From: Planctomycetota bacterium
GTDB taxonomy: Bacteria > Planctomycetota > Planctomycetia > Planctomycetales > Planctomycetaceae
DNA: 64,000 nt
Direction of reading: 5' to 3'
NCBI GenBank assembly: GCA_022600195.1
Contig: JAHZKX010000032.1
Location: forward strand, 1-64,000
In this document: one piece after another, positions 33,458 to 60,149 of the stretch
Numbering within the stretch: the first letter of the stretch is position 1
Layout: each line of letters opens with the position of its first letter
The notes under the pieces: model-generated
Told to the model about the DNA's origin: nothing
Seen by the model: the letters and a program-made list of their open reading frames with translations, nothing else
Databases searched by the model: none
Position numbers and translations under genes: made by a program

Positions 33458-35116
33458 GTGTTGAGTATCACCATACATCATCACAAACACAAGTTCAGAC
33501 CAACTCCGGCCTATGCCTTTGTTGCATTCGTACTATTGTGCTACTTGGCATGCTTCAATGATTCCCTCATCACCTCCGGCTTTGCCTACGATCAGGCAGA
33601 AAAGCGACTCGCTCATCAGATTGACCAGCTCATCAATCAGGCCAAGAAACGCGAGGGCATAATTTCGACTCAGCGTTCTACTGATGCTGAATTTATGCGA
33701 CGCATTTCACTCGACTTGACCGGAAAAATCCCCCCTGTTGCCGAACTGCGGCTTTTTTTGGCTGATCAAGATCCATTGAAACGCGAAAAGCTGATTGATC
33801 GCCTGTTGGCAAGTCCTGGATTTGTTGTACATTTTACTAACATCTGGCGCGCGATTTTAATTCCAGAAACATCTACTGATCTTCAGACACGTGGTCAGAT
33901 ACCTGAATTTGATGCATGGATGCGGTCCCAGTTGCTGAACAACACGGGCTATGATGAGATTGTCAGGAACATTATTGATGTACCACTTGATATCAATCGA
34001 GGTGGAGAGAGGTCAGAGATTTCACAAGTTTTGACACCGCGTGCGTATTATCTGTCAAAGCAATTAAAACCGGAAAATCTGGCTGCAGGTACTTCACGGG
34101 CATTTTTAGGAGTGAGGATCGAATGTGCCCAATGCCACGATCATCCATTTGATTCCTGGAAACAACATCAGTTTTGGCAATACGCGGCTTTCTTTTCAAA
34201 TCTCGATCAGTCACAACCTGGTACTCCTGGAAATGCACTGCTTGTCAGGGAAGTTACTGGAAAACCACGGATCAAAATTCCTGATACAAATCGCTTAGTG
34301 GAAGCCATATTTCTTGACGGAATTCAACCCGAATGGGTTAATGAACAAACTCGGCCACGACGCCGGCTTTCGCAATGGATCACATCTGCCCAAAATCCTT
34401 ATTTTGCAAAAGCAACCACGAATCGGATTTGGAGTCTTTTTTTTGGTCGGGGTATCATCGATCCCGTCGATGATTTTTCCTCAACCAATCGTGCTTCTCA
34501 CCCAAAACTACTTGAATTATTGGCAATACAATTTCGAGAACATGACTATGATTTAAAATATTTAATCCGTGAAATCACCACTAGCCAGACTTACCAACTT
34601 TCCAGCCGTCAAACAGACTCCAGCCAATCCCAAGTTGAATGGTATGGGAAAATGCCGACTCGTGGTTTAACCGCAGAACAAATCTTTGCAAATCTGGTTC
34701 AGGCAACCGGTTTTTTCCAGCAAACAACCGACGATACTGTTCTTCTGCGTCCGGGGACGAATTCACCTCAGGCAGAAATTTACGAATTATTCAAGTCGGA
34801 GTCGGAAAATCGACTGGATCCCAAGGCAACGATACTCCAGGCACTGTCTCTAATGAATGGTACGTTTATCACAAATGCCACCAGCCTCGAACAATCTGAC
34901 GTTTTTACAGCGATCGTTGACTTTCCAGAACTGAACGACGAGCAGAAAATCGAAGCATTTTTCCTGTCCGCATTGAGTCGTTACCCAACAAAAGATGAAA
35001 TCAATCGTCTGAAAACTGTTATCGCATCAGCAGGTTCAGGCGAAAATCAGATACACGCTTATTCGGATCTTTTTTGGGCTTTGTTAAACAGCAGCGAATT
35101 TTTATTGAATCACTGA
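33458..35116 (+). CDS. DUF1549/DUF1553 planctomycete cytochrome-like protein
   Basis: 552 residues from the GTG at 33458 (AAGGG 10 bases upstream); a TTG at 33383 is the longer choice. An N-terminal membrane anchor/leader (about 18-42) precedes DUF1549 (RRISLDLTGKIPPVAELRLFL, FTNIWRAILIPE) with the CAQCHDHPFDSW motif, C223 and C226 with H227, which is CxxCH, the c-type heme attachment pattern. The second half is DUF1553 (RLSQWITSAQNPYFAKATTNRIWSLFFGRGI, DDFSSTN, LKYLIREITTSQTYQLSS). Function of the family is unknown, though these proteins are planctomycete-specific and exported. It is the first gene of the large operon and ends one base before the EF-hand gene. Confidence 0.93.
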   Translation: MLSITIHHHKHKFRPTPAYAFVAFVLLCYLACFNDSLITSGFAYDQAEKRLAHQIDQLINQAKKREGIISTQRSTDAEFMRRISLDLTGKIPPVAELRLFLADQDPLKREKLIDRLLASPGFVVHFTNIWRAILIPETSTDLQTRGQIPEFDAWMRSQLLNNTGYDEIVRNIIDVPLDINRGGERSEISQVLTPRAYYLSKQLKPENLAAGTSRAFLGVRIECAQCHDHPFDSWKQHQFWQYAAFFSNLDQSQPGTPGNALLVREVTGKPRIKIPDTNRLVEAIFLDGIQPEWVNEQTRPRRRLSQWITSAQNPYFAKATTNRIWSLFFGRGIIDPVDDFSSTNRASHPKLLELLAIQFREHDYDLKYLIREITTSQTYQLSSRQTDSSQSQVEWYGKMPTRGLTAEQIFANLVQATGFFQQTTDDTVLLRPGTNSPQAEIYELFKSESENRLDPKATILQALSLMNGTFITNATSLEQSDVFTAIVDFPELNDEQKIEAFFLSALSRYPTKDEINRLKTVIASAGSGENQIHAYSDLFWALLNSSEFLLNH

Positions 35117-35117
35117 G

Positions 35118-36821
35118 ATGCTAAAAAATGCCATAACAATTTGTAGTCTGCTGCTTGCAGGTATACTGGGATTCAATATGAATACCAGTGTATCAAGGGG
35201 CGAAGTCCAGCCGGTTTCAGTTGAGTCTCAAGATCAATATTCTGTTCAGAGAATGATCCTGCTGGCTCCCTCAGCTCCTTTTGTGATCGAACTCAGCCTG
35301 CTGGTTGACAAAGGTAATTTTCGTGCTACGACGACAGATTACAGTGAACGACTCTTCCGTTCGCTTGATCGTAATCAGGACAAATTTATTGATCTGCAGG
35401 AGATAAAAAATCTGCCTGCCTTTGGATTCAAACGATATGACCAGGGGAATCCCGAACAGCGAATGAAATTACTTGAGATTCCCCCTGCTGATAACCGGTT
35501 GAGTCTTGCGGAATTCGCTGCTTATATTCATCTTGCTCAAGGAACTGCCTTTCGGGTGGCAGGTGCTCCTGCCAGAACATCTCAGGTAATCGAGTTATTT
35601 CGCAAGCTAGATCAGAATGGTGACGGCTCTGTGAGCGATCGGGAATTTCAGGTGAGTTCACAAACACTTTTCAAGTATGACCGCGACGAGGATCAAGTAT
35701 TCAATCTTGCTGAGCTAAGGCCTTTTGGAGCCGTTTCTAACCAGGGTATTGCTCAGCCGGTTCTTCGGCAAACCGTTGAGACTCCTTTTCTTCAATTGGA
35801 TAATGATCGATCACTGACTGCCGCAATTCAGGAATTGTTTAAGAAGTACATTGAATATGCGAATGCAAAAAAGGATGCACTTTCAATAGAGTGTTTTCGA
35901 TCAAAGCAACCTGATGCTGCCAAACTAACTAAATATGACCGTAATCAAGATGGTTTTTTTGATCAGGACGAGCTGTTGGCCTATCTGCATAATCCAGTGG
36001 TGGATATGAATTTGCAGATTGTGCTTCCTCGCACGCAAAATATTCGTCCACAATTAAAACTACTGAAAAAAAACTCGAATCGAATTAGTGAAGTAGAATC
36101 GCGTTCACGATCCAGGTTACAATTACGAGTGGATAGTCTACTTTTTGAAATTCGTGCTAAGAGTTCACGTTATATGTTTGACAATACTGTCTGGTTTTAT
36201 CAGGCCCGCTTTCGTGTTGCCGATAATGACAAGAACGGATATTTAAATCAGTCTGAATTTATGCAGCTGGATTTGCCCAACACCAATTATAAAAAAGTGG
36301 ATCAAAATAAGGATGAGATGTTGACGGTTGAAGAGCTAACCTCTTTTTTAATAAAAGACATAGCTTCTATTCAGAATCAGGTTGTGATGACAGTTGATAA
36401 TGATGGGAAATCACTTTTTGAAATTTTGGATACCAATCGCGACCAGCGACTCAGTCCACGCGAATTGAAAAAAAGCCTGCAGCGGATAAAACAATTCGAT
36501 GGCAATCATGATCAATCATTGGATAGTTCCGAGTTGCGGGGACATTTTAAGTTGACTTTCGAATTGGGAAAACCAAATTTGTTTAAATTCGCTCCACGTA
36601 ATAATTCCATGTCAATGAGACAGACGCGTATGGTGCAAAGGACCGTGGTGGGACCGCGATGGTTTCAACGCATGGACCGCAATCGGGACGAAGATATTTC
36701 ACCCCGGGAATTCTTATTTGATCCATCTATATTTACAAAAATAGATCTTAATCAAGATCAACTAATCAGTCCTGAAGAAGCAGATGCGGTTGAAAAGCAA
36801 AAACAAGCCAATATAAAATAG
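35118..36821 (+). CDS. Secreted protein with ten EF-hand-like calcium loops
   Basis: 567 residues with a signal peptide (to about residue 27). EF-hand loops of the DxNxDxxxxxxE type start at about residues 84, 165, 188, 274, 368, 394, 437, 460, 519 and 542 (for example DRNQDKFIDLQE, DQNGDGSVSDRE, DRNQDGFFDQDE). Between 205 and 260 and between 290 and 365 are helical stretches without loops. No enzymatic domain is seen. Probably a periplasmic calcium-binding protein. It begins one base after the DUF1549 stop. Confidence 0.88.
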   Translation: MLKNAITICSLLLAGILGFNMNTSVSRGEVQPVSVESQDQYSVQRMILLAPSAPFVIELSLLVDKGNFRATTTDYSERLFRSLDRNQDKFIDLQEIKNLPAFGFKRYDQGNPEQRMKLLEIPPADNRLSLAEFAAYIHLAQGTAFRVAGAPARTSQVIELFRKLDQNGDGSVSDREFQVSSQTLFKYDRDEDQVFNLAELRPFGAVSNQGIAQPVLRQTVETPFLQLDNDRSLTAAIQELFKKYIEYANAKKDALSIECFRSKQPDAAKLTKYDRNQDGFFDQDELLAYLHNPVVDMNLQIVLPRTQNIRPQLKLLKKNSNRISEVESRSRSRLQLRVDSLLFEIRAKSSRYMFDNTVWFYQARFRVADNDKNGYLNQSEFMQLDLPNTNYKKVDQNKDEMLTVEELTSFLIKDIASIQNQVVMTVDNDGKSLFEILDTNRDQRLSPRELKKSLQRIKQFDGNHDQSLDSSELRGHFKLTFELGKPNLFKFAPRNNSMSMRQTRMVQRTVVGPRWFQRMDRNRDEDISPREFLFDPSIFTKIDLNQDQLISPEEADAVEKQKQANIK

Positions 36822-36856
36822 TAGAGAATCATCCTGTTCAACGCGGGGAAGACCAA

Positions 36857-38476
36857 ATGGAAAAAATGACTAAGTCAAATCATTTAATAACGCGGGTTCA
36901 ACGTCGTTTGACAGTGGCCTTGTGTGGGCGAAAATTATATGTGTCTTTTGTCTGTAGTGCGGCAGCTTATCTGGCATTGCTGTTAGCGAGCCGATTTACT
37001 GGTTATTACAGAGAATGGTTTCCTCTTGAATCTGTAGGCGTTGTGCTATTGGGAACCGTATTACTTTCCGGTCTTCTGTTTCGAAAGCCAAGTAAAGAAC
37101 AAGCGGCAAGGCTGATTGATCAAAAACAGAAGACGAAAGATCTGTTTTTAACAGTAACCATGCTCGAAAATGCCATGGGCAATTATAAACCTCTGGTTGC
37201 CCTCGATGCGGAAAAGAAAGCAGAGAAGATCAAGCCTGCAAATGTGATCCGATTTGATTGGGCGCGAAGAATCGCCCTTTCCTGCGCAGGAGTTGTAGTG
37301 ATATTTCTAGTGTTACAGTATACGCCTCAGTTTGATCCCTTTGGGGAAGTTCAGGCAGCAAAAATTGAACAGGAGAAATCAAAAGAATTCGAGAAATCCA
37401 AGAAGGCTACAAAAGTTCGATTAGCCGAGCTCAAGAATAAGGATACCGGTGAAGGGGATGAAGAATCCAAAGATGTAAAAAAGGCTGTCGAAAACTTGAA
37501 ATCGGATTTTCGAAAAATGACTCCAGGCAAGAAACTGAAGAACTCAGAAACTCTTGCCGGTCATCAAAAAACAATCGGTGGTAAATGGCGTAAAATTGCC
37601 GAAGAGAAAATGAAAAGTCTGATGATCAAAACCGACCAGTCTCAGAAATTCGGTGGCATGTCAAAAAATGAGGGAATGCAGAAATGGAATAAAGAACTTC
37701 AGGAAGGTTCTACACAGTCTCTTACTAAAGAAATGGATGAATTAAAAGATCAGCTTCAGCGATTAATGAAAGAAACAGATCCTGTAAAACGTGAGCAATT
37801 GAAAAATGAGATCCAGAAAAAAATAAAAGAAATGGAGTCATTTGCGCGCGAAGAAACCAATTCTAAAGCGATGTCTGCTGCACTAAAGCGGGCAATGAAA
37901 CAAATGCAGATGGCAAAAGCGAAAGGACTCAGTTCGGAAGAAGCATTAAAGGAAGCAATGCAGTCAATGGATCTTGCTAAAATGGAATTAAAGGAGATAG
38001 CACAATCCGCTAAAGATATGAAAAAGCTGGAAGAAGCTCTCAAAGTATTACAGATGGCAAAAAAAGCAAATGAGAAATCAGGTTTGGATGGTGAAGCATG
38101 TGAAAATTGTCTGACATTGGAAGATTATGAAGAGCTTTATGCCGATCTGATGGGGGACATGCCCGGTGAGGGCACGGGTGGTGAAGGTCAGGGAGGGGGC
38201 GGCAAAGTCGACGAAGATGACTCATCCAAGACAGGATTTAAAACAGAGAAATCAAAGTCAGCTATTACCGCTGGTAAAGTTCTTCTTTCACTCAAAACCA
38301 AAGGACTCAGCGATAGTGGCGAAGCAAAAAAACAGTTCAGTAGTTTGCTCAAAATTAAACAGGGTATGAGCGAAGCAATTGTTCAAGAGCAAATTCCTCC
38401 AGGCTACCATAAAGGGATTAAAAAGTACTTCAATTCATTAGAGAAACAACCAGCAGAAAAATCATCTAAGAAATGA
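36857..38476 (+). CDS. Membrane protein with long Lys/Glu-rich coiled coil
   Basis: 539 residues. Two N-terminal membrane segments (about 28-45 and 55-74) and one at about 140-158, then a very charged region (160-420) of Lys/Glu/Gln heptads that is a predicted coiled coil, a CENCL motif near 417, a Gly-rich linker (GEGTGGEGQGGGG) and a C-terminal helical domain. The first 90 residues resemble the N-terminus of DUF4175-like proteins that accompany MoxR/VWA operons. Start ATG at 36857 after GGGGAAG. The stop overlaps the next start by 4 bases (ATGA). Function not known. Confidence 0.75.
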   Translation: MEKMTKSNHLITRVQRRLTVALCGRKLYVSFVCSAAAYLALLLASRFTGYYREWFPLESVGVVLLGTVLLSGLLFRKPSKEQAARLIDQKQKTKDLFLTVTMLENAMGNYKPLVALDAEKKAEKIKPANVIRFDWARRIALSCAGVVVIFLVLQYTPQFDPFGEVQAAKIEQEKSKEFEKSKKATKVRLAELKNKDTGEGDEESKDVKKAVENLKSDFRKMTPGKKLKNSETLAGHQKTIGGKWRKIAEEKMKSLMIKTDQSQKFGGMSKNEGMQKWNKELQEGSTQSLTKEMDELKDQLQRLMKETDPVKREQLKNEIQKKIKEMESFAREETNSKAMSAALKRAMKQMQMAKAKGLSSEEALKEAMQSMDLAKMELKEIAQSAKDMKKLEEALKVLQMAKKANEKSGLDGEACENCLTLEDYEELYADLMGDMPGEGTGGEGQGGGGKVDEDDSSKTGFKTEKSKSAITAGKVLLSLKTKGLSDSGEAKKQFSSLLKIKQGMSEAIVQEQIPPGYHKGIKKYFNSLEKQPAEKSSKK

Positions 38477-39516
38477 ATCAGAAAACAAGGGGGCGGCTTT
38501 TTTCCGGATGGTTCATCCTGGTAATGGTAGAACTTGCTGCCATCATCTCCATCGGGATCTTCTTTTTTTATCAGCAGAATGAAGATGCGCTCGTCGTTTA
38601 TTGTGCACATGACGCTGTGTTTTCTGAAGAAATATTGAAGGCATTTGAGCAGAAAACGGGAATCAAAGTTGAACCACGCTTTGATACCGAAGCGACCAAA
38701 TCACTGGGGTTAACTAACCTGATTATTCGTGAGCAAAATCATCCTCGTTGTGATGTTTTCTGGAATAATCAAACTCTGGGCACAGTTGACCTCAAAGAGC
38801 GGGGGTTATTGGAAGCCTATCAAGGGGAGGGTTACAGCAGGATTCCGGATCAATTTAAAGATGTAGAGGGTTATTGGACCGGATTTGCAGCGAGACTCCG
38901 AGTTTACATCACAAATACAGAAAAATTAAATGCTTCGAAAGAGAGTATCGATCAGAAATTGTCAGGGCCTCTGAATGAGGTAGCAATCGCAAAGCCTCTC
39001 TATGGGACAACTTTAACGCATTATACGGTTCTCTGTGATGCATGGGGCCTGGACGAGTTAAAAAAATGGCATCATTCTCTTGAGAAAAGAGAGATCCAGG
39101 AAACATCGGGAAATGCCAGTGTGAAAAATCTGGTCGCCAGCGGTGCCTGTGCATTGGGGTTTACCGATACAGACGATTATTTTGTGGCGGTAGATGAAGA
39201 CAGACCCGTTGCTGTATTGCCTGTGACTGTCGACGGCCGCGTTATTCTAATTCCGAATAGTGTTGCCATTATTAAAGGAACGAAAAAACGTGAACAGGCA
39301 GAGTTGTTAGTGGATTATTTACTTTCAGAAGAAGTAGAACTCAAGCTGGCGCGATCCCAGTCGCGACAAATTCCTTTGGGAAAAGTAGATTGGACACACG
39401 TTCCCGAGACAGTCAGAAAATTTCAAAGATCTATTGAGAATGCCTATCCATTATCAAATCTAGTCATACAGCGAGCGAAAACATTGGCCTGGCTTAAATC
39501 GGAGTATGTGAAATGA
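38473..39516 (+). CDS. ABC transporter substrate-binding protein of the ferric-iron type
   Basis: 347 residues, membrane-anchored by an N-terminal helix (WFILVMVELAAIISIGIFFFY) rather than a lipobox. The rest is a periplasmic binding fold: LVVYCAHDAVFSEEILKAFEQKTGIKVEPRFDTEATKSLGL, then GYWTGFAARLRVYITN and VAVLPVTVDGRVILIPNSVAII. This is the pattern of FbpA/ThiB/AfuA-type proteins (SBP class 6-like), which bind ferric iron, thiamine or small anions. It has no obvious iron-binding Tyr pair that I can assign, so the substrate is open. It overlaps the permease gene by ATGA. Confidence 0.82.
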   Translation: MNQKTRGRLFSGWFILVMVELAAIISIGIFFFYQQNEDALVVYCAHDAVFSEEILKAFEQKTGIKVEPRFDTEATKSLGLTNLIIREQNHPRCDVFWNNQTLGTVDLKERGLLEAYQGEGYSRIPDQFKDVEGYWTGFAARLRVYITNTEKLNASKESIDQKLSGPLNEVAIAKPLYGTTLTHYTVLCDAWGLDELKKWHHSLEKREIQETSGNASVKNLVASGACALGFTDTDDYFVAVDEDRPVAVLPVTVDGRVILIPNSVAIIKGTKKREQAELLVDYLLSEEVELKLARSQSRQIPLGKVDWTHVPETVRKFQRSIENAYPLSNLVIQRAKTLAWLKSEYVK

Positions 39517-40976
39517 GCCTGGCCACAATTTGTGGCGTGACACTGTTGCGCAGTCTGATTATTTCGATTTTGGGAGTTTTATTATCCCGACCTTTGTCAC
39601 ATCTGATTAATGCTGGTCATTCAAAACGTGCTTTTCTGTTACTGATTCTGATCTTGGCTCCTTTTCTGGTTCCGGAATTGATTGTTGGTTATGCATGGTC
39701 TTTGATTTCACTAAAACTGGTACATTACCCTCTATTGATAGAACTGATTTATTCCAGTCTCGTTTTGCTGAAAGTTGTTCCCGTGGGCATTGTCTGCTTT
39801 TATTTTTCTTCTCCGTTCATTTCAACAGAGGCAGATTATATTCGAAAATCAGTCAATTCAAATTCTACACAACTTTCTGATCTGAAAACTCACTGGAGTT
39901 TCTTTCTGTGGAAACATGTGCTGCCGTCTTTACCTGTTGGAGCGTTGTTATTTCTGCTGGCATTTCAGGAATTTGAAATGGCTTCCTTAATTTATCGAGA
40001 TTCATGGATGGTGTGGATTTTTGACGCACAAGCCGGAGGCGTTCCGATTTCTGAAACGGTTTCATTTTTGACAGGACCATTGTTAATCGAGCTAGTAGTT
40101 ATCGTTGGTGTTTTATATTTTTTAAGTCGAATTCGCCTTCAGCCACGATTAGATCAGCTATCCAATGTAAAAAAAACTTCGTTTTCCTCGACTTTGCAGT
40201 CCTGGGGTTATGTTTTGGCTGCTTTTTTGGTGGTCGTTGTGATTCCATTCAGCCTGACTGGCTGGGGTGGTGTGATTTCACTGGGTAGTCTGTTTCAGAA
40301 TCAATTGCAATTGACGGAGACTCTGCGTGAATGTACCTGGGGACTGGTTTATGGTGTCACATCTGCTATCGCAGCCTGGGGAATGGCTGCCTTCTTTTTT
40401 TCGAGAAATCAACCACGTCAACTTAAAATATTAGGCTTTCTGTTTTGTCTACCCGGGCTCTGCGGTTCCCTGACTCTTTCAATCGTCATGGCTAATTTAT
40501 TCTTAACCGAATCCGGACATTGGCTATACGACACTCCTTTGGCATTCTTTATTGCGTTAGTACTTTTTCTTTTTCCCAGAGCCGTCTTTTTAAAGTTAAT
40601 CATTCTTGCGTCTCAGGAAAACGACTCGTTATTTCTAACGAGATTGTTGAGTCGCTCCAAGAATCATACTCAGTCACAGAGTGGAGGGCACCTACATTGG
40701 TCTGTGAACGGGAAAATGCAATATTGGGCCGTTGTCCTGCTGGCTTTCTGGGCCTACTGGGATGTTACGATCAGTTCGATTCTGGCCCCCAACAATACGA
40801 TGACCTCCTCGATTCGATTATACGGTTTAATGCACTATGGGCAGAATTCTGTTCTCTCTGCAATGACTTTTCTCAGTTTTTGCATACCAGTTTTAATCAG
40901 TCTTCTTTTTTTTCCAATCGTAAGAAAACTGTGGATGACTGTTTCAGACCGCTCAACTATGAATGAGACTTTTTAA
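39513..40976 (+). CDS. ABC transporter permease of the FbpB/ThiP type
   Basis: 487 residues with about twelve hydrophobic segments, the double-permease architecture of iron(III) and thiamine importers. The binding-protein-dependent signature is weakly present around the middle of each half (VLPSLPVGALLFLLAFQEFEMASLIYRD and GFLFCLPGLCGSLTLSIV). Located between the binding protein and ATPase genes, with 4-base overlap upstream and 5 bases before the ATPase. Function is transport across the inner membrane; the substrate is unknown. Confidence 0.8.
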   Translation: MSLATICGVTLLRSLIISILGVLLSRPLSHLINAGHSKRAFLLLILILAPFLVPELIVGYAWSLISLKLVHYPLLIELIYSSLVLLKVVPVGIVCFYFSSPFISTEADYIRKSVNSNSTQLSDLKTHWSFFLWKHVLPSLPVGALLFLLAFQEFEMASLIYRDSWMVWIFDAQAGGVPISETVSFLTGPLLIELVVIVGVLYFLSRIRLQPRLDQLSNVKKTSFSSTLQSWGYVLAAFLVVVVIPFSLTGWGGVISLGSLFQNQLQLTETLRECTWGLVYGVTSAIAAWGMAAFFFSRNQPRQLKILGFLFCLPGLCGSLTLSIVMANLFLTESGHWLYDTPLAFFIALVLFLFPRAVFLKLIILASQENDSLFLTRLLSRSKNHTQSQSGGHLHWSVNGKMQYWAVVLLAFWAYWDVTISSILAPNNTMTSSIRLYGLMHYGQNSVLSAMTFLSFCIPVLISLLFFPIVRKLWMTVSDRSTMNETF

Positions 40977-40981
40977 ATATA

Positions 40982-45888: not shown

Positions 45889-45917
45889 CAGGACTTTTAT
45901 TCTGCGGAGATATCAAG

Positions 45918-46934: not shown

Positions 46935-46940
46935 ACAGCG

Positions 46941-47846
46941 GTGCCTCAGGAATCTAATACAAATCAGTTTACGAGCTTGTTTGATAACAAAACGTTATCA
47001 ATGCTGGAGAGAATGCGTTTAAATCCGACACGTCGACTAACCAATAGAAGTCGTGGTGAGCATCTTTCAGGTAAGGGGGGGACCAGTACAGAATTTTCAG
47101 ATTATCGTAATTATGTTCCCGGTGATGATGTGCGATATATCGATTGGAATATCTTTTCCCGTTTAAACCGTCCATTTATGAAACAATATCAGCATGAAGA
47201 AGAAATGCATGTCGTCCTGATACTGGATGCCTCTTCTTCGATGGATTACGAAAACAAGTTTTTACGCTGCCAGCAGTTAGCCGCTGCTTTTGGTGTCATG
47301 GGCCTCTTGAATTTTGAAAAAGTGAGCGTCTATGCATGTAATCATAAAGGTTCACGACCGGCCATGTTTGCGCCATCGACTGGCCGCATCAGCATGAAAC
47401 GATTATTCGATTTCCTCACTAAAATTGAGGTTGGTGGAAACTCTCCAGTTGAAGATGCTGTCGAAGATGTTTTGCGAATACATCGCGGTCGGGGAGTTGC
47501 GATCGTTCTTTCCGATTTTGAATCATTTGGAGACTTACAACGTCCTTTCAACATGCTGTTCAGTGCGGGGCTGGAAATTTATGGCGTTCAAATATTGGGC
47601 TCCTCTGAAATCAATCCGGAAATCAATGGTGATTTACGATTAGTTGATAGCGAAAGCGGTCAGACATTGGATATTTCTTCAGCAGGAGATTTACTGGGGA
47701 TTTATCATGAGCATCGCGCCTTGCTGGAAGACCATCTGGCTATGATGTGTCGCCAGCGGTCGGGACGATTTCTGACGATCGACAGTGGCGATACTGTGGA
47801 GCATATCATATTTGACCTGCTAAGACGGAAAGGATGGGTCAGATGA
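46941..47846 (+). CDS. DUF58 protein with VWA-like domain
   Basis: 301 residues. The DUF58 core GRxxTExxDYRxYxxGDDxRxxDWxxxxR is clear (GGTSTEFSDYRNYVPGDDVRYIDWN, residues 46-70), followed by a VWA-like fold with DASSS (96-100). No membrane segment, so probably cytoplasmic partner of MoxR. Start GTG at 46941, 6 bases after the MoxR stop; an ATG at residue 21 is an alternative. Its last bases overlap the next gene. Confidence 0.95.
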   Translation: MPQESNTNQFTSLFDNKTLSMLERMRLNPTRRLTNRSRGEHLSGKGGTSTEFSDYRNYVPGDDVRYIDWNIFSRLNRPFMKQYQHEEEMHVVLILDASSSMDYENKFLRCQQLAAAFGVMGLLNFEKVSVYACNHKGSRPAMFAPSTGRISMKRLFDFLTKIEVGGNSPVEDAVEDVLRIHRGRGVAIVLSDFESFGDLQRPFNMLFSAGLEIYGVQILGSSEINPEINGDLRLVDSESGQTLDISSAGDLLGIYHEHRALLEDHLAMMCRQRSGRFLTIDSGDTVEHIIFDLLRRKGWVR

Positions 47847-49726: not shown

Positions 49727-49749
49727 AAGTTGAAAGAAAGACTGGGTTT

Positions 49750-51921: not shown

Positions 51922-51965
51922 ACTAACTCTTCTAAGACTCTAAAATGAAAAGATGACAGATTCTG

Positions 51966-52913
51966 ATGAGCACACAACCTCCAATGGTGGAAGTAAAAAA
52001 TCTGTGGGTACGTTACGGAAAATATGAAGCCGTCAAAGGCATTTCTTTTTCGATACCCAAGGGTGAAGTATTCGGTTTTATCGGCCCAAATGGGGCTGGA
52101 AAATCTTCCACGATCAAAGTTCTGGCAACGTTACAACGGGAATATCAATGTGACACGGTCAAGATAAATGGTATTTCATTGAACAAAGCCCCTCACCTGA
52201 TCAGAGAAATAATCGGTTATATGCCTGATTTTTTTGGTGTTTACGAAGATTTAACCGCACGGGAATATCTACATTTTTTTGCAGCCGCTTATCGTATTGA
52301 TCGCAAGAAACGAAAAGCCATTGTGAACGATGTCTTAGAGTTAACAGATTTAACCGGAAAAATTGATGCGCCTGTTGATTCGTTGTCCCGAGGTATGAAA
52401 CAACGATTGGCACTGGCACGTGTCCTGTTACATGATCCTGATTTGTTATTACTCGATGAGCCTGCCAGCGGTCTGGATCCCCGCGCCCGAATAGAAGTTC
52501 GCGAGCTATTGGTTGCGTTAAAGGAAATGGGGAAAACGATTATTATCTCCAGTCATATTCTTCACGAACTGTCACAACTTTGTACCAGTATCGGAATCAT
52601 TGAAGCGGGTGAATTTGTCACACAGGGATCTCTCGATCACATCTATAAGCGTCTGGAACTCAGTCGCGTTGTTCATGTCCAGATTGTCGGTGAAATGAAT
52701 GGAGTTTGTGAAAACATCGAAGCAATGCCAGGTGTGAAATCAGTTACTGTTCAGGCAGATCGCCTGGCGATTCAGCTGCAGGAAGATCAGTTGGCTGTTG
52801 AAGATTTACATGCAAAACTTGCTGCTACAGGTGTAAAAATTCGGATGTTTCAGGCGGAAGCCATGGACATGGAAACGGTGTTCATGAAACTGACGGAAGG
52901 GAAAACCGCATGA
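51966..52913 (+). CDS. ABC-2 type ATPase, copy A
   Basis: 315 residues. Walker A GPNGAGKSS (about 39-47), Q-loop region GYMPDFFGVYEDLTAREYLHFF, signature SLSRGMKQRLALARVL, Walker B LLLLDEPASGLDPRA and the switch His (SSHILHEL). The C-terminal 90 residues are a dimer/regulatory domain typical of ABC-2 exporters. Followed by its permease with a 4-base overlap (ATGA). Related to the ATPase at 56666. Confidence 0.95.
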   Translation: MSTQPPMVEVKNLWVRYGKYEAVKGISFSIPKGEVFGFIGPNGAGKSSTIKVLATLQREYQCDTVKINGISLNKAPHLIREIIGYMPDFFGVYEDLTAREYLHFFAAAYRIDRKKRKAIVNDVLELTDLTGKIDAPVDSLSRGMKQRLALARVLLHDPDLLLLDEPASGLDPRARIEVRELLVALKEMGKTIIISSHILHELSQLCTSIGIIEAGEFVTQGSLDHIYKRLELSRVVHVQIVGEMNGVCENIEAMPGVKSVTVQADRLAIQLQEDQLAVEDLHAKLAATGVKIRMFQAEAMDMETVFMKLTEGKTA

Positions 52914-54781
52914 AATTGAGACGATTTCAAATCAGTTTGCCCTTGCTGAGCAAAGAATTAACCGAGATGGCTAATCGTCGACGGACTTATATTATCCGCA
53001 CAATTTATGCACTGCTGTTTCTGGGATGTATCGGTTATATTAGTCTCGACCAGGTATCCGGCCTTCAAAATAATCCATTGGCGATACTTGGTCGCGGGCG
53101 TCAAATATTTGAATCAATGATCTATTTACAATTCACCGCGATCTATTTATTCCTGCCAGCAATCACCTGTAGCGTGATAACACAGGAAAAAGAACACAAT
53201 AGCCTGGGGCTCTTATTAATTACGCGATTGAGTCCTTCCACGATCATCCTGGAAAAGTACCTGGGACGATTGATCACCATGGTTACATTTCTGATGCTGG
53301 GACTTCCGATTTTAGCATTTGCTTATTCATTGGGGGGCGTCTCACCGGCCATGTTTATTAATGGACTCTGGTTGCTGGTGCTCACGATGTTCCAGGTGGC
53401 AGCGCTTGGTGTATTGTGCTCAAGTTTCTTTCGCACGACCGTATCGGCATTTATTGCCTCATATGTATTTGGTTTTTTAATGTTGTTCGGACCAGTTATT
53501 TCTTATGAATTGAATCTGTTCTTTTTTGGCGATTTTCTGAAAATGATAACTGATCAAGTACGAGACATGCCGCTTTGGTCGAATTATATTTCTGCAAGGA
53601 GAGGCGATCTGAGCCTTCTGTTATTTGCCCCCTATTGGTTTGATCGATTATCCGGGGGAGGGGGAATTGGTTCGATTGGTAGAACATTTCTCATCAGTAT
53701 CCCGATTTTATTGAGCACATTTGTGTTTCTGATTTTCTCGCACTACTTTCTGGTGCGTCGTGCTTTTCTTCCTTCGCGAAATTATTTATTGAATCTCTTC
53801 AAATCATTAGACAGCATTTTTTCTAAAATCAATCATAACCGGGTTACACGCGGAATCGTTCTCGTAAAAGAACAGATTCAACTTCCAGAAAACAGGCCGA
53901 TTGCCTGGCGTGAAACATCAAAAAAATCTCTGGGAACTGTCCGCTATCTATTTCGAATTTTGATAGCGCTCGAAGTCCCCGTACTTTTCCTGTGTTTATT
54001 TATTGCATCCAGTAGCCCTGCAGCCATTGTTCCAGGTGCGGTCATGTTACTCTGGTTCATCTGGGGGCTGGTAGTATTGCTGTTGGCGGTTTCCGCAACC
54101 AGTCTGATCTCCGGTGAACGCTCTCATGAAACATTGGATGTTTTACTGACAGCACCAATATCCGGAACCGACATTCTAACGCAGAAAATTGCTGGTGTGC
54201 GACGTTTATCTATGGCTTTATTAGTTCCTTTGCTGACAATTGTGTTATTTGAAGCCTGGTGGAAATGGGAGTACGCCCAGATCAATCCAAACAATCGCAA
54301 TCCATATGAATTACAGTGGCTGCCTTATTTGATTGGATCACTACTTACCATTGGGATTTATCTACCGATGTTAACCTGGCTTTTTTGCTGGATCGGCATG
54401 AAAGTAAAATCACAAACGAAAGCAATTCTTTCTGCATTGGGTGTGATTGTTCTCTGGTGTATTCTTCCATTCATTTTAATGTTCCCGGTTTTAATACTGA
54501 ATCCTTCATTTAATGAAGAGTCAGTCATTTATGGTTTATTTCTCAGTCCCGCATCGTATATCGTAATTAATGAAATAGCCGAATTTCATGAGTTTGGTAC
54601 TACCTGGGGTCCTTTAATGATTAATTCTTTCATTTACGGTGGCTGTTATTTACTGTTCCGTTATCAGTGTCATATGCATATCGATAAAAATCTTGGTCGT
54701 TTAGACAGCAAGGGGAATTTTATAGACCGATCGACGCTGTTCCCTTCAGGTAAACAATCTCTTTTGAGTTCAGATCAATGA
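52910..54781 (+). CDS. ABC-2 type permease, copy A
   Basis: 623 residues with about twelve hydrophobic segments in two halves, resembling ABC-2 family membrane proteins that partner the preceding ATPase. The first half contains TYIIRTIYALLFLGCIGYI, SVITQEKEHNSLGLLLITRLSPSTIILEKYL and a Gly-rich loop; the second begins ETSKKSLGTVRYLF and has SLISGERSHETLDVLLTAPISGTDILTQKI. So two ABC-2 type units appear to be fused in one chain. Substrate unknown. It overlaps the next gene by 4 bases. Confidence 0.9.
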   Translation: MKLRRFQISLPLLSKELTEMANRRRTYIIRTIYALLFLGCIGYISLDQVSGLQNNPLAILGRGRQIFESMIYLQFTAIYLFLPAITCSVITQEKEHNSLGLLLITRLSPSTIILEKYLGRLITMVTFLMLGLPILAFAYSLGGVSPAMFINGLWLLVLTMFQVAALGVLCSSFFRTTVSAFIASYVFGFLMLFGPVISYELNLFFFGDFLKMITDQVRDMPLWSNYISARRGDLSLLLFAPYWFDRLSGGGGIGSIGRTFLISIPILLSTFVFLIFSHYFLVRRAFLPSRNYLLNLFKSLDSIFSKINHNRVTRGIVLVKEQIQLPENRPIAWRETSKKSLGTVRYLFRILIALEVPVLFLCLFIASSSPAAIVPGAVMLLWFIWGLVVLLLAVSATSLISGERSHETLDVLLTAPISGTDILTQKIAGVRRLSMALLVPLLTIVLFEAWWKWEYAQINPNNRNPYELQWLPYLIGSLLTIGIYLPMLTWLFCWIGMKVKSQTKAILSALGVIVLWCILPFILMFPVLILNPSFNEESVIYGLFLSPASYIVINEIAEFHEFGTTWGPLMINSFIYGGCYLLFRYQCHMHIDKNLGRLDSKGNFIDRSTLFPSGKQSLLSSDQ

Positions 54782-56673
54782 AATATCTGTTTAATACGAT
54801 GAAATCCACAAGCATATCTTGTCGGCAAATGTTGCTAACCGGCTGTGCCGGAATGCTGCTTCTTTTACCAGGTACTATTTATGCCATGGATATTGAAGAA
54901 GCCATCTGGGGATTTAATAATCAACGTCCGACAGGGCAATGTATTCCACTTTCTCTATTATTGAGCAATAATACTCCCGAATCATTTGATGAACTGGTTC
55001 AATTGAATCGTCTGCAGTTCAACGGCACCAAAGTTGGCGCTCCACTCTACCGCAGGGTGTTCCTTGCTCCTTACACATCTCAATGGGTGCAGTTTTACCC
55101 CTATATTATTAATAATGAGCAGCAGGAAAACTGGTCCCTTAGCTGGGGGCCTGGTAATCTTTACAGCCGTCGTATCAACAAGCCTGGTAGAAACTCTGAT
55201 AACACTGAGAATGAAGCTGCGAATAAATCGCGTATTATTCTCGTTGATCGAAATGCTCTATCGCAAGGTGGAAGTCATTTTAAAACGTTCCTTGATGAAC
55301 TGTTCCCCCCGTCTGTCACTGCAACGGATTCTTTGGATGAAATAATTCTGGACCACGTCCCACGTTGGGATGCAGCACGCAGAAATTCATTTATGGATTG
55401 GCTCTATCGCGGTGGAATATTGCATCTGCTTCCCGATGCATCTGACGCGAACTTGAAGTTTACGACGAACATGTCTGCGCTTAATGCACCTTTTGATCAC
55501 TTCCGTATTGGTGCTGGGTTAATTATTCGTCATTCCGGTCAACTTAAAGAGTTGGATAAAAAACAATTATTGTCAAGAAAACAGGAAGTTCAAAGTGCCG
55601 AGTTATCTGCTGTTGGTGCTACTGTCCCCACTCCTGAAACAACTAAAAAAGCACCAAAAACTTACAATAACGGTGTAATCGATAATTTTAATTCCTATTT
55701 ACTTTATCAGCTTTCAGAACTGACACACCCTGACCATAACTGGTCGATGATATATTTAATGACAGGAGCGTATTTGCTTATGATATTTCCTGGCTGCTAC
55801 TTTTTTCATAAGAAACAAAAGGGTTATCGTAATTCATTGCTCTTTATTCTAATGACAGTCGCACTTTTCAGTACCATGTTTTGGAGTGTTGGCAAACGTG
55901 GCTATGGTGAAACAACAACACTGAATAGTTTGATCATTGCACGTCCACTGAGTGGCGATCATTATGATTTAACTTATTGCGTCAATGCTTTTGTTACCGA
56001 TGGTGCTGACTATCAGTTTACAGGAAAGGGCGAAGGCGCCATCTACACAACGGCTCAAGAAATTGAAAAAGTTAAGGGGGCAATCATGAATGGCGTTGAT
56101 GGAAGTTTTCATGCGGATATTCCTCCCTTTTCTGCCCGCAGTTTCATGTGTCGTATTAAAGCAACCTATCCGAAACCTGTCATGAAAGTTCTCGAGTATC
56201 AGATCGATAAAAAATCAAGATTAAAAACGCTGAAAATCAAGTTAAACTCAGCATTACCAAAGAATACATCGATCAGTCAAGTTCTCTATAATCGTGTTTT
56301 ATACGATCTAAAACAGACCCGGGAGAAAGATGCCTTTATTCTGGAATTGGGAAATCACTCAACGCCACTTACAGCATGGAAATCCATATTAGAATCAGAT
56401 TCAAGATATAATCGACGATTTGGGTATCGCGATGAAGAAACAGATACTCCCAAAGTCTATGCCAGTTTGTATAAACGACTGGTCATGAAAAATTTGAATC
56501 TAGTTCGACCGGGTCAACTCAGGACTTACAATAACGATCTATCACGTATCAAACTTTTCTTTTACTGTGATATTCCTGATGAATTTAAATTGAAGACGAA
56601 TGTCAATGGATTACAACAAGGACGTACACTGTTTGTAAATAAGATTGCATTACTCAATAATATGAATGACTAG
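54778..56673 (+). CDS. Secreted/membrane protein, copy B of the GATase-like family
   Basis: 631 residues. Signal peptide (LLLLPGTIYAMD) and a large exported head with the GATase-like segment (DEIILDHVPRWDAARRNSFMDWLYRGGILHLLPDA), then membrane helices at about 322-342 and 350-370 (AYLLMIFPGCYFFHKKQ, SLLFILMTVALFSTMFWSV), matching the layout of the 49750 protein. The C-terminal part is exported. Starts within the permease gene (ATGA) and ends 8 bases inside the next ATPase gene. Function unknown; probably an accessory subunit of the ABC-2 exporter. Confidence 0.75.
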   Translation: MKYLFNTMKSTSISCRQMLLTGCAGMLLLLPGTIYAMDIEEAIWGFNNQRPTGQCIPLSLLLSNNTPESFDELVQLNRLQFNGTKVGAPLYRRVFLAPYTSQWVQFYPYIINNEQQENWSLSWGPGNLYSRRINKPGRNSDNTENEAANKSRIILVDRNALSQGGSHFKTFLDELFPPSVTATDSLDEIILDHVPRWDAARRNSFMDWLYRGGILHLLPDASDANLKFTTNMSALNAPFDHFRIGAGLIIRHSGQLKELDKKQLLSRKQEVQSAELSAVGATVPTPETTKKAPKTYNNGVIDNFNSYLLYQLSELTHPDHNWSMIYLMTGAYLLMIFPGCYFFHKKQKGYRNSLLFILMTVALFSTMFWSVGKRGYGETTTLNSLIIARPLSGDHYDLTYCVNAFVTDGADYQFTGKGEGAIYTTAQEIEKVKGAIMNGVDGSFHADIPPFSARSFMCRIKATYPKPVMKVLEYQIDKKSRLKTLKIKLNSALPKNTSISQVLYNRVLYDLKQTREKDAFILELGNHSTPLTAWKSILESDSRYNRRFGYRDEETDTPKVYASLYKRLVMKNLNLVRPGQLRTYNNDLSRIKLFFYCDIPDEFKLKTNVNGLQQGRTLFVNKIALLNNMND

Positions 56674-57655
56674 CAAAATGAATGAATTGCTTTCTGATAC
56701 GCCGATATTCGATGATAACCCTGTAATTGATATAAAAAATGTGTCACACGCCTTTAAGGGCCACCGGGCGCTGCAAGGGATCAGTTTTCAGGTTCATCCG
56801 CAATCTTTGCATGGGTTTGTTGGTCCTAATGGTGCAGGTAAGACGACCACTTTAAAAATAATATGCACCTTGTTGCGACCCCAGGCTGGAAAAATCGAAG
56901 TATTTGGGAATAACGTGCTAACCGGCGTTAAAGAGATTCGTAAACGAATTGGATTTATGCCCGACCACTTCAGTACCTATCGTCAAATGACCGTTTTTGA
57001 GTATCTGGATTTCTTCGGCGCAGCATATGGTCTGGGAGTGGAACAACGTGATCAGGTTATCAATGATGTGCTGACGCTGACTGATATGGATGGTCGTAAG
57101 GATTCGCTGATTAGTGGATTGTCGCGTGGTATGCAGCAACGCGTTAGTTTGGCCCGCGTTTTAGTCAATGACCCTGATTTATTATTGCTTGACGAGCCTG
57201 CTTCCGGCCTAGACCCACGCGCACGAATTGAGCTGATGGAAATACTTCAAGAATTAAAACGCATGGGGAAAACCATTTTTATCAGTTCGCATATTCTGAG
57301 TGAGCTGGCAGAACTTTGTGACAGCGTGACGATCATTGATCGCGGATTAATAAAATATAGTGGTACGATGGATGGGTTATTAACACACGAACAAGAGCAT
57401 CCCACTTATAAGATTGTATTAGCGTCAGAAGTGGAAGGGCTTGTAGAATCGCTGGCGAACGAATCGGGAGTTCTTAATGTAGAAAAAACAGAAAAAGCTC
57501 GAGAATTACGCGTTTCTTTTGATGCAACGACAACAAACACCAGTAAGCTATTATCAAAAATCATAAATCTGCAAGGAGTAATAGAGTCATTCCAAAAAGA
57601 TAAGAAGCATCTGAATCAGGCATTCCTGGATTTAACCGAACAGGGAGTGCGTTAA
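56666..57655 (+). CDS. ABC-2 type ATPase, copy B
   Basis: 329 residues. Walker A GPNGAGKTT, signature GLSRGMQQRVSLARVL, Walker B LLLLDEPASGLDPRA and the switch His in SSHILSEL. It differs from copy A in the N-terminal ~20 residues and in the C-terminal half but keeps the core in the same order (for example FMPDHFSTYRQMTVFEYLDFFGAAYG against YMPDFFGVYEDLTAREYLHFFAAAYR). The ATG at 56666 overlaps the preceding stop by 8 bases. The final A overlaps the permease start. Confidence 0.95.
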   Translation: MTSKMNELLSDTPIFDDNPVIDIKNVSHAFKGHRALQGISFQVHPQSLHGFVGPNGAGKTTTLKIICTLLRPQAGKIEVFGNNVLTGVKEIRKRIGFMPDHFSTYRQMTVFEYLDFFGAAYGLGVEQRDQVINDVLTLTDMDGRKDSLISGLSRGMQQRVSLARVLVNDPDLLLLDEPASGLDPRARIELMEILQELKRMGKTIFISSHILSELAELCDSVTIIDRGLIKYSGTMDGLLTHEQEHPTYKIVLASEVEGLVESLANESGVLNVEKTEKARELRVSFDATTTNTSKLLSKIINLQGVIESFQKDKKHLNQAFLDLTEQGVR

Positions 57656-59208
57656 TGTTTCAAGGAATGTTTGCACTTTTTCATCGGGCATTAAATGTCG
57701 ATTTCCGTTTGACACGGACGCATTTGTTTCGATTCCTGTTCGCAGTGATGATCCTGTTTAGTTTAATGATGGCGCATACAACCAGTCGATTTATGGCTGC
57801 TGCAGGGCTGGTTTTTTTTACGCAAATCATCTATCTCAACTTTGTCTTTATTATCATGGCAGGTATCAGTTTTTTTGCCACGGCAATCACAGAGGAAAAA
57901 GAAGAACAAACGATCGGTTTGCTCTTGATGGCGGGGGTGAATCCCATCTCTCTCTTACTGGGAAAATCACTGCCTCGGTTGGTTTCTGCCCTCTTGCTGC
58001 TATCAGTCCAGTTCCCCTTCACATTACTGGCGATTACATTAGGTGGCGTTACATTCTCTCAAGTGATTTCTGCCTATATTGCATTAGCCGTTTTTTTGTT
58101 TTTTCTGTCAAACCTGGGTTTGATTTGTTCCGTCGTGTGTGCGCGATCTCGCTCTGCATCCACGCTTGTTGTTCTTTCACTCGCGTTTTATTTTTTTGGA
58201 ATTCCACTGCTTAAATGGATTTTGTTAGTGATGGTGCAACAGGGGTGGATCTCCGCTGGTTCCATAATTAACTTTTACCCCAAACTTATATTGGACTGGC
58301 TTAGTCAGTTTTCTGTATTGAGTCAAATTAATAGGATCCTTATTTCCGGTTTTAGTGAATCTCCCTGGAACATGCAGTTTTGGGGCAATCTGATTATGGG
58401 AATCATTTTGTTCTTCTTTGCGTGTTTACTTTTCAACCGGTTTGCTCTGACGGAAATCTCTACAAGTCCCGGGCGTGGTTTAATCGCAAAAAAGAAAAGT
58501 CATTACTTTTCACCGGGCCGTTCATGGTCGAATGCATTAATATGGAAAGATTATTTCTTTCTCAATGGTGGCTATGGAATGGCGGTGATCAAATTATGCT
58601 GCTATGGGATTGCCTTAATGGCATTATGTATTTTTGTTGCGTATCTATCACGCAGCTATTCAAGGGAAGAATTTGCCCTGACTGTATTCTGGACGATGCT
58701 CGTTGTACTTATTATCGAGATTAGTCTGATCTCAGCCCGTGTCTTTCATGTTGAGGTCCAGTGGAACACGATGGTATCCACTGCAATGCTGCCTCAATCG
58801 ATGTCAAAAACAGCATACTCTAAAGTCATCGGATGCCTGCTCAGTTTAGTCCCGGTATGTTTTTATCTGTCGATTGGTTTTGTCCTCTGTATCGATGAGA
58901 TGCTGTACGATCTCGGAATGGTTCTGTCAGAACCGGGGTTTTGGATGATGTTTATTGAAGTCCTTTTTTTCTGGCATTTAACGGCACTTTTATCGACATA
59001 CATCAAGTGGGGGGCTTTGCCACTGGCATTCGTGCTCATGTGGGTTGGCAATATGTTTTTCTTTTTTTCGGCCAGCCTTATCACACTGGGCGGGGGAGCA
59101 AGAGCCATCGAATCGCTCTATATCGTATTTACTCTAGCGATGTTTGTCGGTATCGTAGTATCACACTTCGTCATCAAGGAACGTTTAATTCAACTTGCAT
59201 CTCGATAG
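57655..59208 (+). CDS. ABC-2 type permease, copy B
   Basis: 517 residues, about twelve hydrophobic segments. The early segment AITEEKEEQTIGLLLMAGVNPISLLLGKSLPRLV parallels SVITQEKEHNSLGLLLITRLSPSTIILEKYLGRLI in copy A, so the two permeases are paralogous at least in their first halves. It is shorter than copy A. Starts by a one-base overlap with the ATPase stop (TAATG). The gene ends 38 bases before the Tat-exported isomerase. Confidence 0.9.
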   Translation: MFQGMFALFHRALNVDFRLTRTHLFRFLFAVMILFSLMMAHTTSRFMAAAGLVFFTQIIYLNFVFIIMAGISFFATAITEEKEEQTIGLLLMAGVNPISLLLGKSLPRLVSALLLLSVQFPFTLLAITLGGVTFSQVISAYIALAVFLFFLSNLGLICSVVCARSRSASTLVVLSLAFYFFGIPLLKWILLVMVQQGWISAGSIINFYPKLILDWLSQFSVLSQINRILISGFSESPWNMQFWGNLIMGIILFFFACLLFNRFALTEISTSPGRGLIAKKKSHYFSPGRSWSNALIWKDYFFLNGGYGMAVIKLCCYGIALMALCIFVAYLSRSYSREEFALTVFWTMLVVLIIEISLISARVFHVEVQWNTMVSTAMLPQSMSKTAYSKVIGCLLSLVPVCFYLSIGFVLCIDEMLYDLGMVLSEPGFWMMFIEVLFFWHLTALLSTYIKWGALPLAFVLMWVGNMFFFFSASLITLGGGARAIESLYIVFTLAMFVGIVVSHFVIKERLIQLASR

Positions 59209-59246
59209 ACTACTTACAGAAAAAGGTCCATAGAAAAGATATTATT

Positions 59247-60149
59247 ATGAATTCAGAAATCAGTCGAAGAAAATTATTGCAAAATTCTGGAGTGATGGCG
59301 GCCACGGCCCTGGGGTTAGGGGGACAGCAGGCTTATGCGGGAAAAAGAAATCAGACTATTTGTCAGCAGCCCCTCAAAGGTGACATTAATCAATCAGTCG
59401 TACACTGGTGTTTTAAAAAATATTGGGACATCGAACAAACGGCGCAAGTGGCATCGCAGCTTGGGATGAAGAGTGTTGAACTGACGCCTCCCGAAAACTG
59501 GGGGACTCTCAAGAAGTATGGATTAACCTGTGCGATCGCATCCAGTCACGGATTCAAAGTGGGGTTTAATAACCCCAAGCATTGGGATCAATGTATTGAA
59601 ATTCTGCGGAAAAGGATTGACGACTGTGCTGCTGGGGGAGTCAAAAATGTAATCACATTCACTGGAATGCGAGATGGGATTAGCGATGAAGCAGGGGCCA
59701 AAAACTGTGTAGCAGGGTTCAAAAAAATTGTAGGGTATGCAGAGAAGAAAAAAGTGAATCTCTGTCTGGAAATGTTAAATTCCCGGGACGACAGCCACCC
59801 CATGAAAGGTCATCCCGGTTACCAGGGTGACAACACCGAATATTGTATCGATATAATCAAGCAGGTTGGTTCCGACCGCATGAAATTATTATTTGATATT
59901 TATCATGTGCAAATAATGGATGGCGATGTGATACGCCGCATTCGAGAACATAAAGACTATATTGGTCATGTTCATACGGCCGGAAATCCGGGTAGAGGCG
60001 AATTGGACCAAAAGCAGGAAATCAACTATCCTCCGATCATGCAGGCATTACTGGATATTGGCTATCAGGGTCATGTAGGGCAGGAGTTCATCCCCACAAT
60101 CGACCCCTATCAGGGGTTGAAGCAGGCAGTTGAACTTTGTGACGTCTAG
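59247..60149 (+). CDS. Tat-exported hydroxypyruvate isomerase-like TIM-barrel protein
   Basis: 300 residues. The N-terminus carries a Tat motif (SRRKLLQ) and a hydrophobic stretch ending about residue 31, so the folded protein should be exported. The body is a xylose-isomerase-like TIM barrel: VHWCFKKYWDIEQTAQVASQLGMKSVEL, LCLEMLNSRDD, LLFDIYHVQIM, IGHVHTAGNPGRGELD and GQEFIPT, where the conserved metal-binding Glu/Asp/His/Glu set of hydroxypyruvate isomerase (Hyi) sits. The ATG at 59247 is chosen; a longer frame reaches back into the permease gene and would bury the Tat signal. The substrate is unproven. Confidence 0.9.
   Translation: MNSEISRRKLLQNSGVMAATALGLGGQQAYAGKRNQTICQQPLKGDINQSVVHWCFKKYWDIEQTAQVASQLGMKSVELTPPENWGTLKKYGLTCAIASSHGFKVGFNNPKHWDQCIEILRKRIDDCAAGGVKNVITFTGMRDGISDEAGAKNCVAGFKKIVGYAEKKKVNLCLEMLNSRDDSHPMKGHPGYQGDNTEYCIDIIKQVGSDRMKLLFDIYHVQIMDGDVIRRIREHKDYIGHVHTAGNPGRGELDQKQEINYPPIMQALLDIGYQGHVGQEFIPTIDPYQGLKQAVELCDV

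Follow-up and report, generated by a model that had tools for sequence, protein, structure and literature searches.

We examined a run of seventeen genes (numbered g1-g17) at positions 33458..60149, + strand, of contig JAHZKX010000032.1; by the window we mean the whole 64,000-nucleotide (nt) stretch of that contig that was analysed. By comparing this block with related loci, we find that its core is, on sequence grounds, an ancient co-inherited gene set and not an accident of the genus Gimesia. The host is a Gimesia-like planctomycete, as the nearest named relatives of its g7 protein come from uncultured Gimesia (86% identity along the entire protein, and 90% to a partial copy). We propose that g3-g16 specify a single envelope machine in the inner membrane, composed of three ATP-driven parts and physically linked by an NHL beta-propeller lipoprotein, a reading that we consider plausible but slightly short of probable. 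It is carried by gene order, the co-occurrence of g4, g7 and g11, a gene fusion, conservation of a lipobox, and the predicted folds of g5 and g11, while the cutting of the fusion product, its docking, the direction of transport and a role in the envelope are what we infer. The system is narrower than the initial annotation of this DNA had it and its range is wider than the planctomycetes, and its modules can come apart.

Gene order and co-occurrence across phyla

To locate related blocks, genome contigs were scanned with a 12-member alignment of g7 (best 80 of 555 confirmed, many on short contigs; below, L-labels are loci or contig stretches compared and G-labels are genomes). The presence of each gene on the same strand was scored with hidden Markov models (HMMs) built from the window and the 80 loci, a measure that is sensitive but not independent, and counted only over loci with enough sequence (“with room”). 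The NHL part of g6 was present at 62 of 71 loci and its ATPase part at 52 of 67, as were the MoxR gene g8 at 55 of 66, the DUF58 gene g9 at 43 of 59, and the BatA-type gene g10 at 40 of 52. Upstream, g3 was found at 27 of 49, g4 at 32 of 53, and g5 at 38 of 57; downstream, g11 at 30 of 48 and g12 at 26 of 46. None of g2-g12 lay solely on the opposite strand, and matches on the minus strand totalled three (g15 in L096 and L108 and a second g6 ATPase part in L148). Order was broken at only 3 of the 80 loci, by g12 standing before g11 (L115 and L117) or by a second NHL copy (L142). Importer, core, and ABC-2 genes occurred together at 20 of the 39 loci that had room in both directions. The complete g3-g13 set was found at 14 of the 80, comprising 11 Planctomycetia, 1 Lentisphaerota, and 2 Verrucomicrobiota loci, with the isolate Chthoniobacter flavus Ellin428 (L118) among them. 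The claim that the system is specific to planctomycetes therefore has to be given up. We also observed two insertions: at the Schlesneria-type loci L089, L090, and L091 (~13000-15850), ~2.8 kb of additional g7-like sequence separates g7 from the MoxR gene, and at L040 (genome G020) and L104 (~9296) a 301-aa protein of uncharacterised type is encoded between the MoxR and DUF58 genes.

Co-occurrence extended to genomes in which the genes are unlinked. Across 118 genomes of the phylum (minimum completeness 90 requested), g7 was detected at E<=1e-170 in 10, and the g4 solute-binding protein (SBP) at E<=3.3e-129 in exactly the same 10; the next SBP scored 5.8e-96, and we chose the g4 cut-off within this score gap. 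The g11 protein appeared at E<=1e-40 in the same 10 genomes plus G085. In the draft genome G101, g4, g7, and g11 are each on a different contig, and in the single-contig G114 the distance between g7 and g11 is 2.7-4 Mb, according to which way round it is counted. Moreover, four loci (L127, L137, L146, and L147) lack g4 and g5 beside g6, and each of these genomes has one g4 ortholog on another contig (4/4). The relocated g4 is accompanied by g5 in L159 and by g3 and g5 in L162, and was detected alone in L160 and L161. These last four stretches come from four genomes of one planctomycete clade, in which the ATPase stays beside the propeller gene. The initial annotation had called for a comparison of gene order and named a split into separately conserved units as the outcome that would count against it; the block does split in some relatives, yet g4 is retained where it has moved and the order recurs elsewhere.

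More distant relatives varied in content. In G055, G048, and G120, which belong to other families, g7 is 33-35% identical to the window’s and g4-g10 stand in order, with g5 matched weakly (17-50 bits), g3 in two of the three, and ABC-2 genes likewise in two; the ABC-2 genes of G055 give weak g13 matches only. A related SBP subfamily is the operon member in these three genomes. G085 carries a g11-g12-g13 cassette, but not on the contig of g7. The machine is modular, because distant relatives and loci with room keep varying sets of modules: importer, core, and exporter are often together, but not always.

The g6 fusion and its internal lipobox

The initial annotation overlooked two features of the central genes, a second VWA-like part between the two GATase-like stretches of g7 and a fusion in g6. 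From its N-terminus, g6 reads as an ATPase, a TOBE domain, a hydrophobic stretch, Cys335, and an NHL propeller, and an NCBIfam profile of the PhnT2 type extends to residue 321 of its 620. ATPase and NHL parts form one open reading frame (ORF) at 37 of the 80 loci by HMM, and at 36 of the 54 loci with both parts by tblastn. This fused form occurs in Planctomycetota, Lentisphaerota, and Verrucomicrobiota. Apparent further fusions (permease, ATPase, and NHL in G023 and L136, and g14 with the ABC-2 ATPase in G023) were put down to ORF calling in GC-rich alternative frames and rejected; the permease of L136 is in another frame, and the G023 cases were judged from match frames.

For lipobox counts we used 37 fused rows, namely the window and 36 loci. 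The Cys is present in 37/37, G, A, or S stands at -1 in 37/37, K or R precedes the hydrophobic core in 36/37, and the ten residues before the Cys are uncharged in 37/37. The NHL half of g6 thus has a positive n-region, a hydrophobic core, a lipobox Cys, and a small -1 residue, as a lipoprotein does. Counting separate genes as well, the Cys is found in 64 of 67 rows; two exceptions are cut by contig ends, and the third (L142) is a different NHL copy. L142 has two such copies (2994 and 8464), of which the upstream one has no lipobox Cys; by eye, its start is twin-arginine-like.

Where ATPase and NHL genes are separate, 8 of 17 pairs (L142 left out) show a 4-nt overlap between the stop of the one and the first possible start of the other, so that a frame shift between them would yield the fusion. 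In G055, G048, and G120, where the NHL protein is separate, it starts with a hydrophobic stretch that ends in Cys. Placed on a g7 tree, the fused or separate label changes at least 6 times (34 fused and 18 separate rows), against a mean of 15.0 under shuffling; the tree is a quick one with long-branch warnings, and near-copies contribute to the difference.

The genome has genes for both LspA and Lgt, and cutting by LspA needs a small residue at -1. Judging from these sequence features, the g6 precursor is probably lipidated and cut in two. The alternative is that the NHL half does not arise by cutting, being either a normal lipoprotein with its own internal start or part of an uncut ATPase whose propeller is permanently tethered outside. 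This we consider unlikely, although several observations speak for it: 9 of the 37 fused rows have an in-frame ATG followed by K or R before the Cys, the window itself has an ATG 11 codons before it, and Lgt could lipidate an uncut chain. However, neither that ATG nor the only other candidate in the window, a TTG, leaves a positive residue. In three fused loci (L074, L082, and L095), the stretch 11-40 codons before the Cys is free of ATG, GTG, and TTG, and an internal start is therefore not general. The invariably small -1 residue also fits what LspA requires. Shine-Dalgarno content did not discriminate internal starts, as it is low even for separate genes (4/18, vs 5/37 fused ones).

A proposed envelope machine and its rivals

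MoxR-VWA operons are widespread, and their purpose is mostly unknown. A comparable statement on Bat-like operons is made in PMC5700661. The block holds a clear representative of this core, with Pfam matches of g8 to AAA_3 (4.5e-63), g9 to DUF58 (1.1e-26), and g10 to BatA (2e-10). In g7, the metal ion-dependent adhesion site (MIDAS) motif DxSxS of the first VWA domain begins at residue 116, and the GATase-like region is split in two around the second VWA-like part; its profile matches include BatB (3ibs, 3.7e-12) and an aerotolerance protein (4jdu, 9.5e-13). No BatC or BatD partner (TPR or BatD match) was found among the 17 block proteins by Pfam at E<=0.01, and at that threshold g3, g5, g11, and g14 match no family.

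The proteins without a family were approached through orthologs and predicted structures. One of 18 g3 orthologs weakly matches DUF4175, and 4 of 17 g11 orthologs match DUF4350; by contrast, g5 has no Pfam match in 17/17 orthologs. Profiles of g5 and g11 found nothing credible among the sequences of solved structures. The AlphaFold2 model of g5 (pLDDT 87.2) matches the Thermus FbpB permease in Foldseek (9j4r_A, E 6.5e-8, TM-score 0.63 over 500 columns). The model of g11 has an Ig-like domain and a GIFT/GATase-like domain, and a GIFT domain in an exporter accessory protein is a trait of Gld-type systems, so the earlier remark that the exporters recall this type gains support from a predicted fold. 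Foldseek with the whole of g11 returned only weak mixed matches; the domain listing that gave the Ig-like and GIFT/GATase-like domains had no GldG entry, which is not evidence of absence.

We suggest the following arrangement. An import unit made of the g4 binding protein, the g5 permease, and the g6 ATPase would take up or sense a small polar ligand, probably not tyrosine-bound ferric iron. In the cytoplasm, MoxR (g8) and its DUF58 partner (g9) would remodel the MIDAS-VWA proteins g7 and g10. One or two ABC-2 exporters (g12/g13 and g15/g16), each preceded by an accessory protein (g11, with its GIFT/GATase-like domain, for the first and g14 for the second), may move or pull an envelope component. 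In many lineages, the propeller lipoprotein would start out as the C-terminal half of the importer ATPase chain; its internal signal would direct export, Lgt would attach the lipid, and LspA would cut it, such that a single translation event could supply both the ATPase and an extracytoplasmic propeller. Once lipid-anchored outside, the propeller may dock on the neighbouring VWA proteins. The membrane (by eye), VWA, and ABC-2 content suggests an envelope role, as does, by analogy, a Rhizobium Bat-type mutant that is reported to alter envelope and shape (PMC5700661). Of the earlier description as a planctomycete envelope-assembly or export system, this role is the part that appears to stand; the restriction to planctomycetes does not.

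More tentatively still, the block may represent a machine of the Planctomycetes-Verrucomicrobia-Chlamydiae (PVC) superphylum in which one gene’s precursor of an importer ATPase and an outer-face lipoprotein is split by lipoprotein processing, fixing the ratio of its halves and physically wiring the importer to a MoxR/VWA complex and GIFT-type exporters. If true, this would amount to a transporter polyprotein in bacteria, with the lipoprotein signal inside the chain, and to a supersystem of transport and chaperone proteins undescribed in the literature searched. In this block, order, co-occurrence, and gene fusion tie a MoxR-VWA operon to defined transporters, which gives testable partner pairs. 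The conserved fusion also raises the general questions of how a cell makes a 320-residue cytoplasmic enzyme that ends in an internal lipoprotein signal, and whether lipoprotein processing serves bacteria as a means to split precursor proteins.

Several observations weigh against the proposal of a single machine. The HMMs behind the presence counts had been trained on the scored loci, and the 80 loci were the best g7 matches. Of those 39 loci with enough sequence on either side, 12 have at most one importer gene, 7 have an incomplete MoxR-DUF58-BatA core, and 12 are without ABC-2 genes (these categories overlap), and L107 and L132 have importer genes and g7 without the core. Eight of the 10 co-occurring genomes belong to one family, which leaves ~3 independent lineages, and G018 and G019 of the same family are without a close g7. 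The distant genomes G055, G048, and G120 were picked because their g4 and g7 matches shared one contig, and the ABC-2 genes of G120 are on the opposite strand. Three of six distant loci fetched together (G132, G085, and G096) have no importer genes beside g7. In six genomes of other families (G028, G029, G030, G034, G037, and G038), tblastn and HMMs found just NHL-VWA-MoxR-DUF58-BatA within ~20 kb around g7; the view that only this short core exists outside the family is true of those six, but G055, G048, and G120 refute it. The related SBP subfamily (best E 1e-96 to 1e-69) occurs in 66 of the 108 other genomes of the phylum, and the importer type is therefore not confined to this system.

The main rival to the envelope machine, which we judge improbable, is metal or cofactor insertion of the Mxa/Cox kind, whereby MoxR and VWA proteins would open up either a target enzyme or the propeller so that a metal delivered by the importer-like unit could be loaded. 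Precedents are MoxR-MoxC/L and CoxD-CoxE (PMC7159879). Such a role would suit the SBP residues D232, D234, and D235, which are invariant in 17/17 ortholog rows, and the EF-hand gene g2, adjacent at 9 of 44 loci with room. Yet that gene is optional, the two ABC-2 exporters would go unexplained, and no metalloenzyme was recognised by Pfam in the 17 genes or by NCBIfam in 10 of them, g3, g11, and g14 being without a family.

Far less likely is a conventional FbpABC importer for ferric iron, accompanied by accessory genes. The best profile match of g4 is a ferric-binding protein (7w3w, E 3.8e-22) and the best fold match of the permease is FbpB, and to this extent the name “iron-type importer” given in the initial annotation holds as a statement of family and fold. 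The ferric Tyr pair of FbpA is not kept, however: it aligns to the invariant D234/D235 in both profile alignments shown. In a single-sequence alignment, where the loop is shifted by two residues, at most one window Tyr stands opposite the pair, and it is unconserved among 17 orthologs. The best NCBIfam names for SBP and ATPase are of the 2-aminoethylphosphonate type, all far below cut-off.

We give scarcely more than token weight to unrelated operons standing side by side through synteny inertia in one genus. All 17 genes are in order in 6/6 same-genus genomes (G001, G003, G009, G011, G014, and G016). This alone is uninformative, because the flanking genes are equally syntenic in Gimesia: the PQQ-type gene and leuB in 6/6 and recJ in 5/6 (in the sixth it would lie beyond the fetched stretch), a further point against reading the block as one unit. 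The edges of the block fit inertia as far as tested. The CxxCH gene g1 is in order in all six genomes and at no locus of another genus, though the upstream sequence of most loci is limited to 10 kb, and outside the window g17 was seen in the six Gimesia stretches alone (0/14 other stretches scanned). But inertia is contradicted for g4-g13, whose order recurs across phyla, and the orthologs of g4, g7, and g11 co-occur even where unlinked. As such, g1, g2, and g17 look peripheral: g1 is probably a Gimesia-level neighbour, g2 appears optional, and g17 looks like a genus-level neighbour in the stretches tested. The CxxCH and EF-hand genes, both counted earlier as parts of the system, do lie in the block, but among the loci compared the former stood in order beside it only in Gimesia and the latter only sometimes.

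Block layout and comparison with known systems

The seventeen genes of the block (Table 1) are all on the + strand, where the initial annotation had counted sixteen, g17 being the one added. Its description as tightly packed holds, as the 16 junctions span -13 to +44 bp and 5 of them are 4-nt overlaps (with likely starts picked for g11 at 49750 and g17 at 59247). The kinds of genes that it named were likewise confirmed, from DUF1549 with CxxCH and EF-hand through MoxR, DUF58, and BatA to the SBP, permease, and ATPase trio and the two ABC-2 pairs of ATPase and membrane protein. Upstream lies a gene for a 1448-aa PQQ-type protein (28513-32859, - strand), with a PQQ_2/BamB-type propeller and a malectin-like C-terminus. 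Downstream, a leuB-like gene points toward the block. The co-oriented run ends with g17, whose N-terminus is twin-arginine-like by eye. Promoter-like matches in a scan of the block were not more than chance, and none of the terminator-like sites listed fell in an intergenic gap, all being within genes or beyond the block. Terminator-like hairpins at 32500-61000 outnumbered shuffles (23 vs 12.6 and 20 vs 12.6), with nearly all of them inside genes. Scans for tRNAs and Rfam families gave no matches.

Table 1. Position and assignment of block genes and of the signal within g6
Feature	Position	Strand	Assignment (basis)
g1	33458..35116	+	DUF1549/DUF1553 (PSCyt2-PSD1), one CxxCH (Pfam, motif)
g2	35118..36821	+	Multi EF-hand protein (Pfam)
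g3	36857..38476	+	Membrane/coiled-coil-like by eye; without assigned family
g4	38473..39516	+	FbpA-type solute-binding protein, TDxDD loop; N-terminal hydrophobic stretch by eye
g5	39513..40976	+	FbpB-type two-repeat importer permease (predicted fold)
g6	40982..42844	+	ABC importer ATPase-TOBE fused in frame to lipobox signal and NHL beta-propeller
Lipoprotein-type hydrophobic signal inside g6, up to Cys335	41951..41986	+	(sequence, conservation)
g7	42841..45888	+	Large protein: MIDAS VWA, GATase-like region, second VWA-like part
g8	45918..46934	+	MoxR AAA+ ATPase, P-loop GVPGLGKT
g9	46941..47846	+	DUF58 protein with DxSxS
g10	47834..49726	+	BatA-type VWA protein, DxSxS at 102
g11	49750..51921	+	Exporter accessory: Ig-like, GIFT/GATase-like, two long transmembrane-looking helices, beta domain
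g12	51966..52913	+	ABC-2 type ATPase (Pfam)
g13	52910..54781	+	ABC-2 type membrane protein (Pfam)
g14	54778..56673	+	Second exporter accessory protein, assigned by position
g15	56666..57655	+	Second ABC-2 type ATPase; 41% identical to a same-genus g12
g16	57655..59208	+	Second ABC-2 type membrane protein
g17	59247..60149	+	Xylose-isomerase-like TIM barrel

The initial annotation knew of no described system that combines these genes, and we found no description in the literature searched, which mostly excludes subscription papers; the comparisons above support a co-inherited set. Relative to that literature, both the transport-chaperone combination and the ATPase-lipoprotein fusion are new.

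The beta-propeller MoxR-vWA ternary conflict systems of Kaur et al. 2020 (PMC7159879) encode the same three protein types together, and g8 gives a weak bpMoxR match (1.8e-10, vs 4.5e-63 for AAA_3), but we regard membership as very improbable: those systems are described with the propeller at the C-terminus of the vWA protein and, often, a MoxR P-loop of the form GXXXTAKS, whereas here NHL or propeller matches occur only in g6 among the 17 genes, as a lipoprotein outside the vWA chain, the P-loop is the canonical one, and transporters are present.

The importer resembles type I importers of the FbpABC kind in its binding protein, two-repeat permease, and TOBE ATPase. It differs from them in having no ferric Tyr pair, a permease that Pfam does not see, an ATPase-lipoprotein fusion, and a VWA/MoxR operon setting. 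Unlike Gld-type ABC-2 exporters (GldA/GldF/GldG), the exporters here come as a duplicated cassette with an extra Ig-like domain and MoxR/VWA neighbours; there is no Pfam match to GldG in the block, and the membrane-protein matches are to generic ABC-2 families. Bat (aerotolerance) operons share with the block a tight order of MoxR, DUF58, BatA, and a VWA protein that has BatB among its best solved relatives. By contrast with those operons, BatD and TPR proteins go undetected in the block, and an NHL lipoprotein, a GATase-like region, an ABC importer, and ABC-2 exporters are added.

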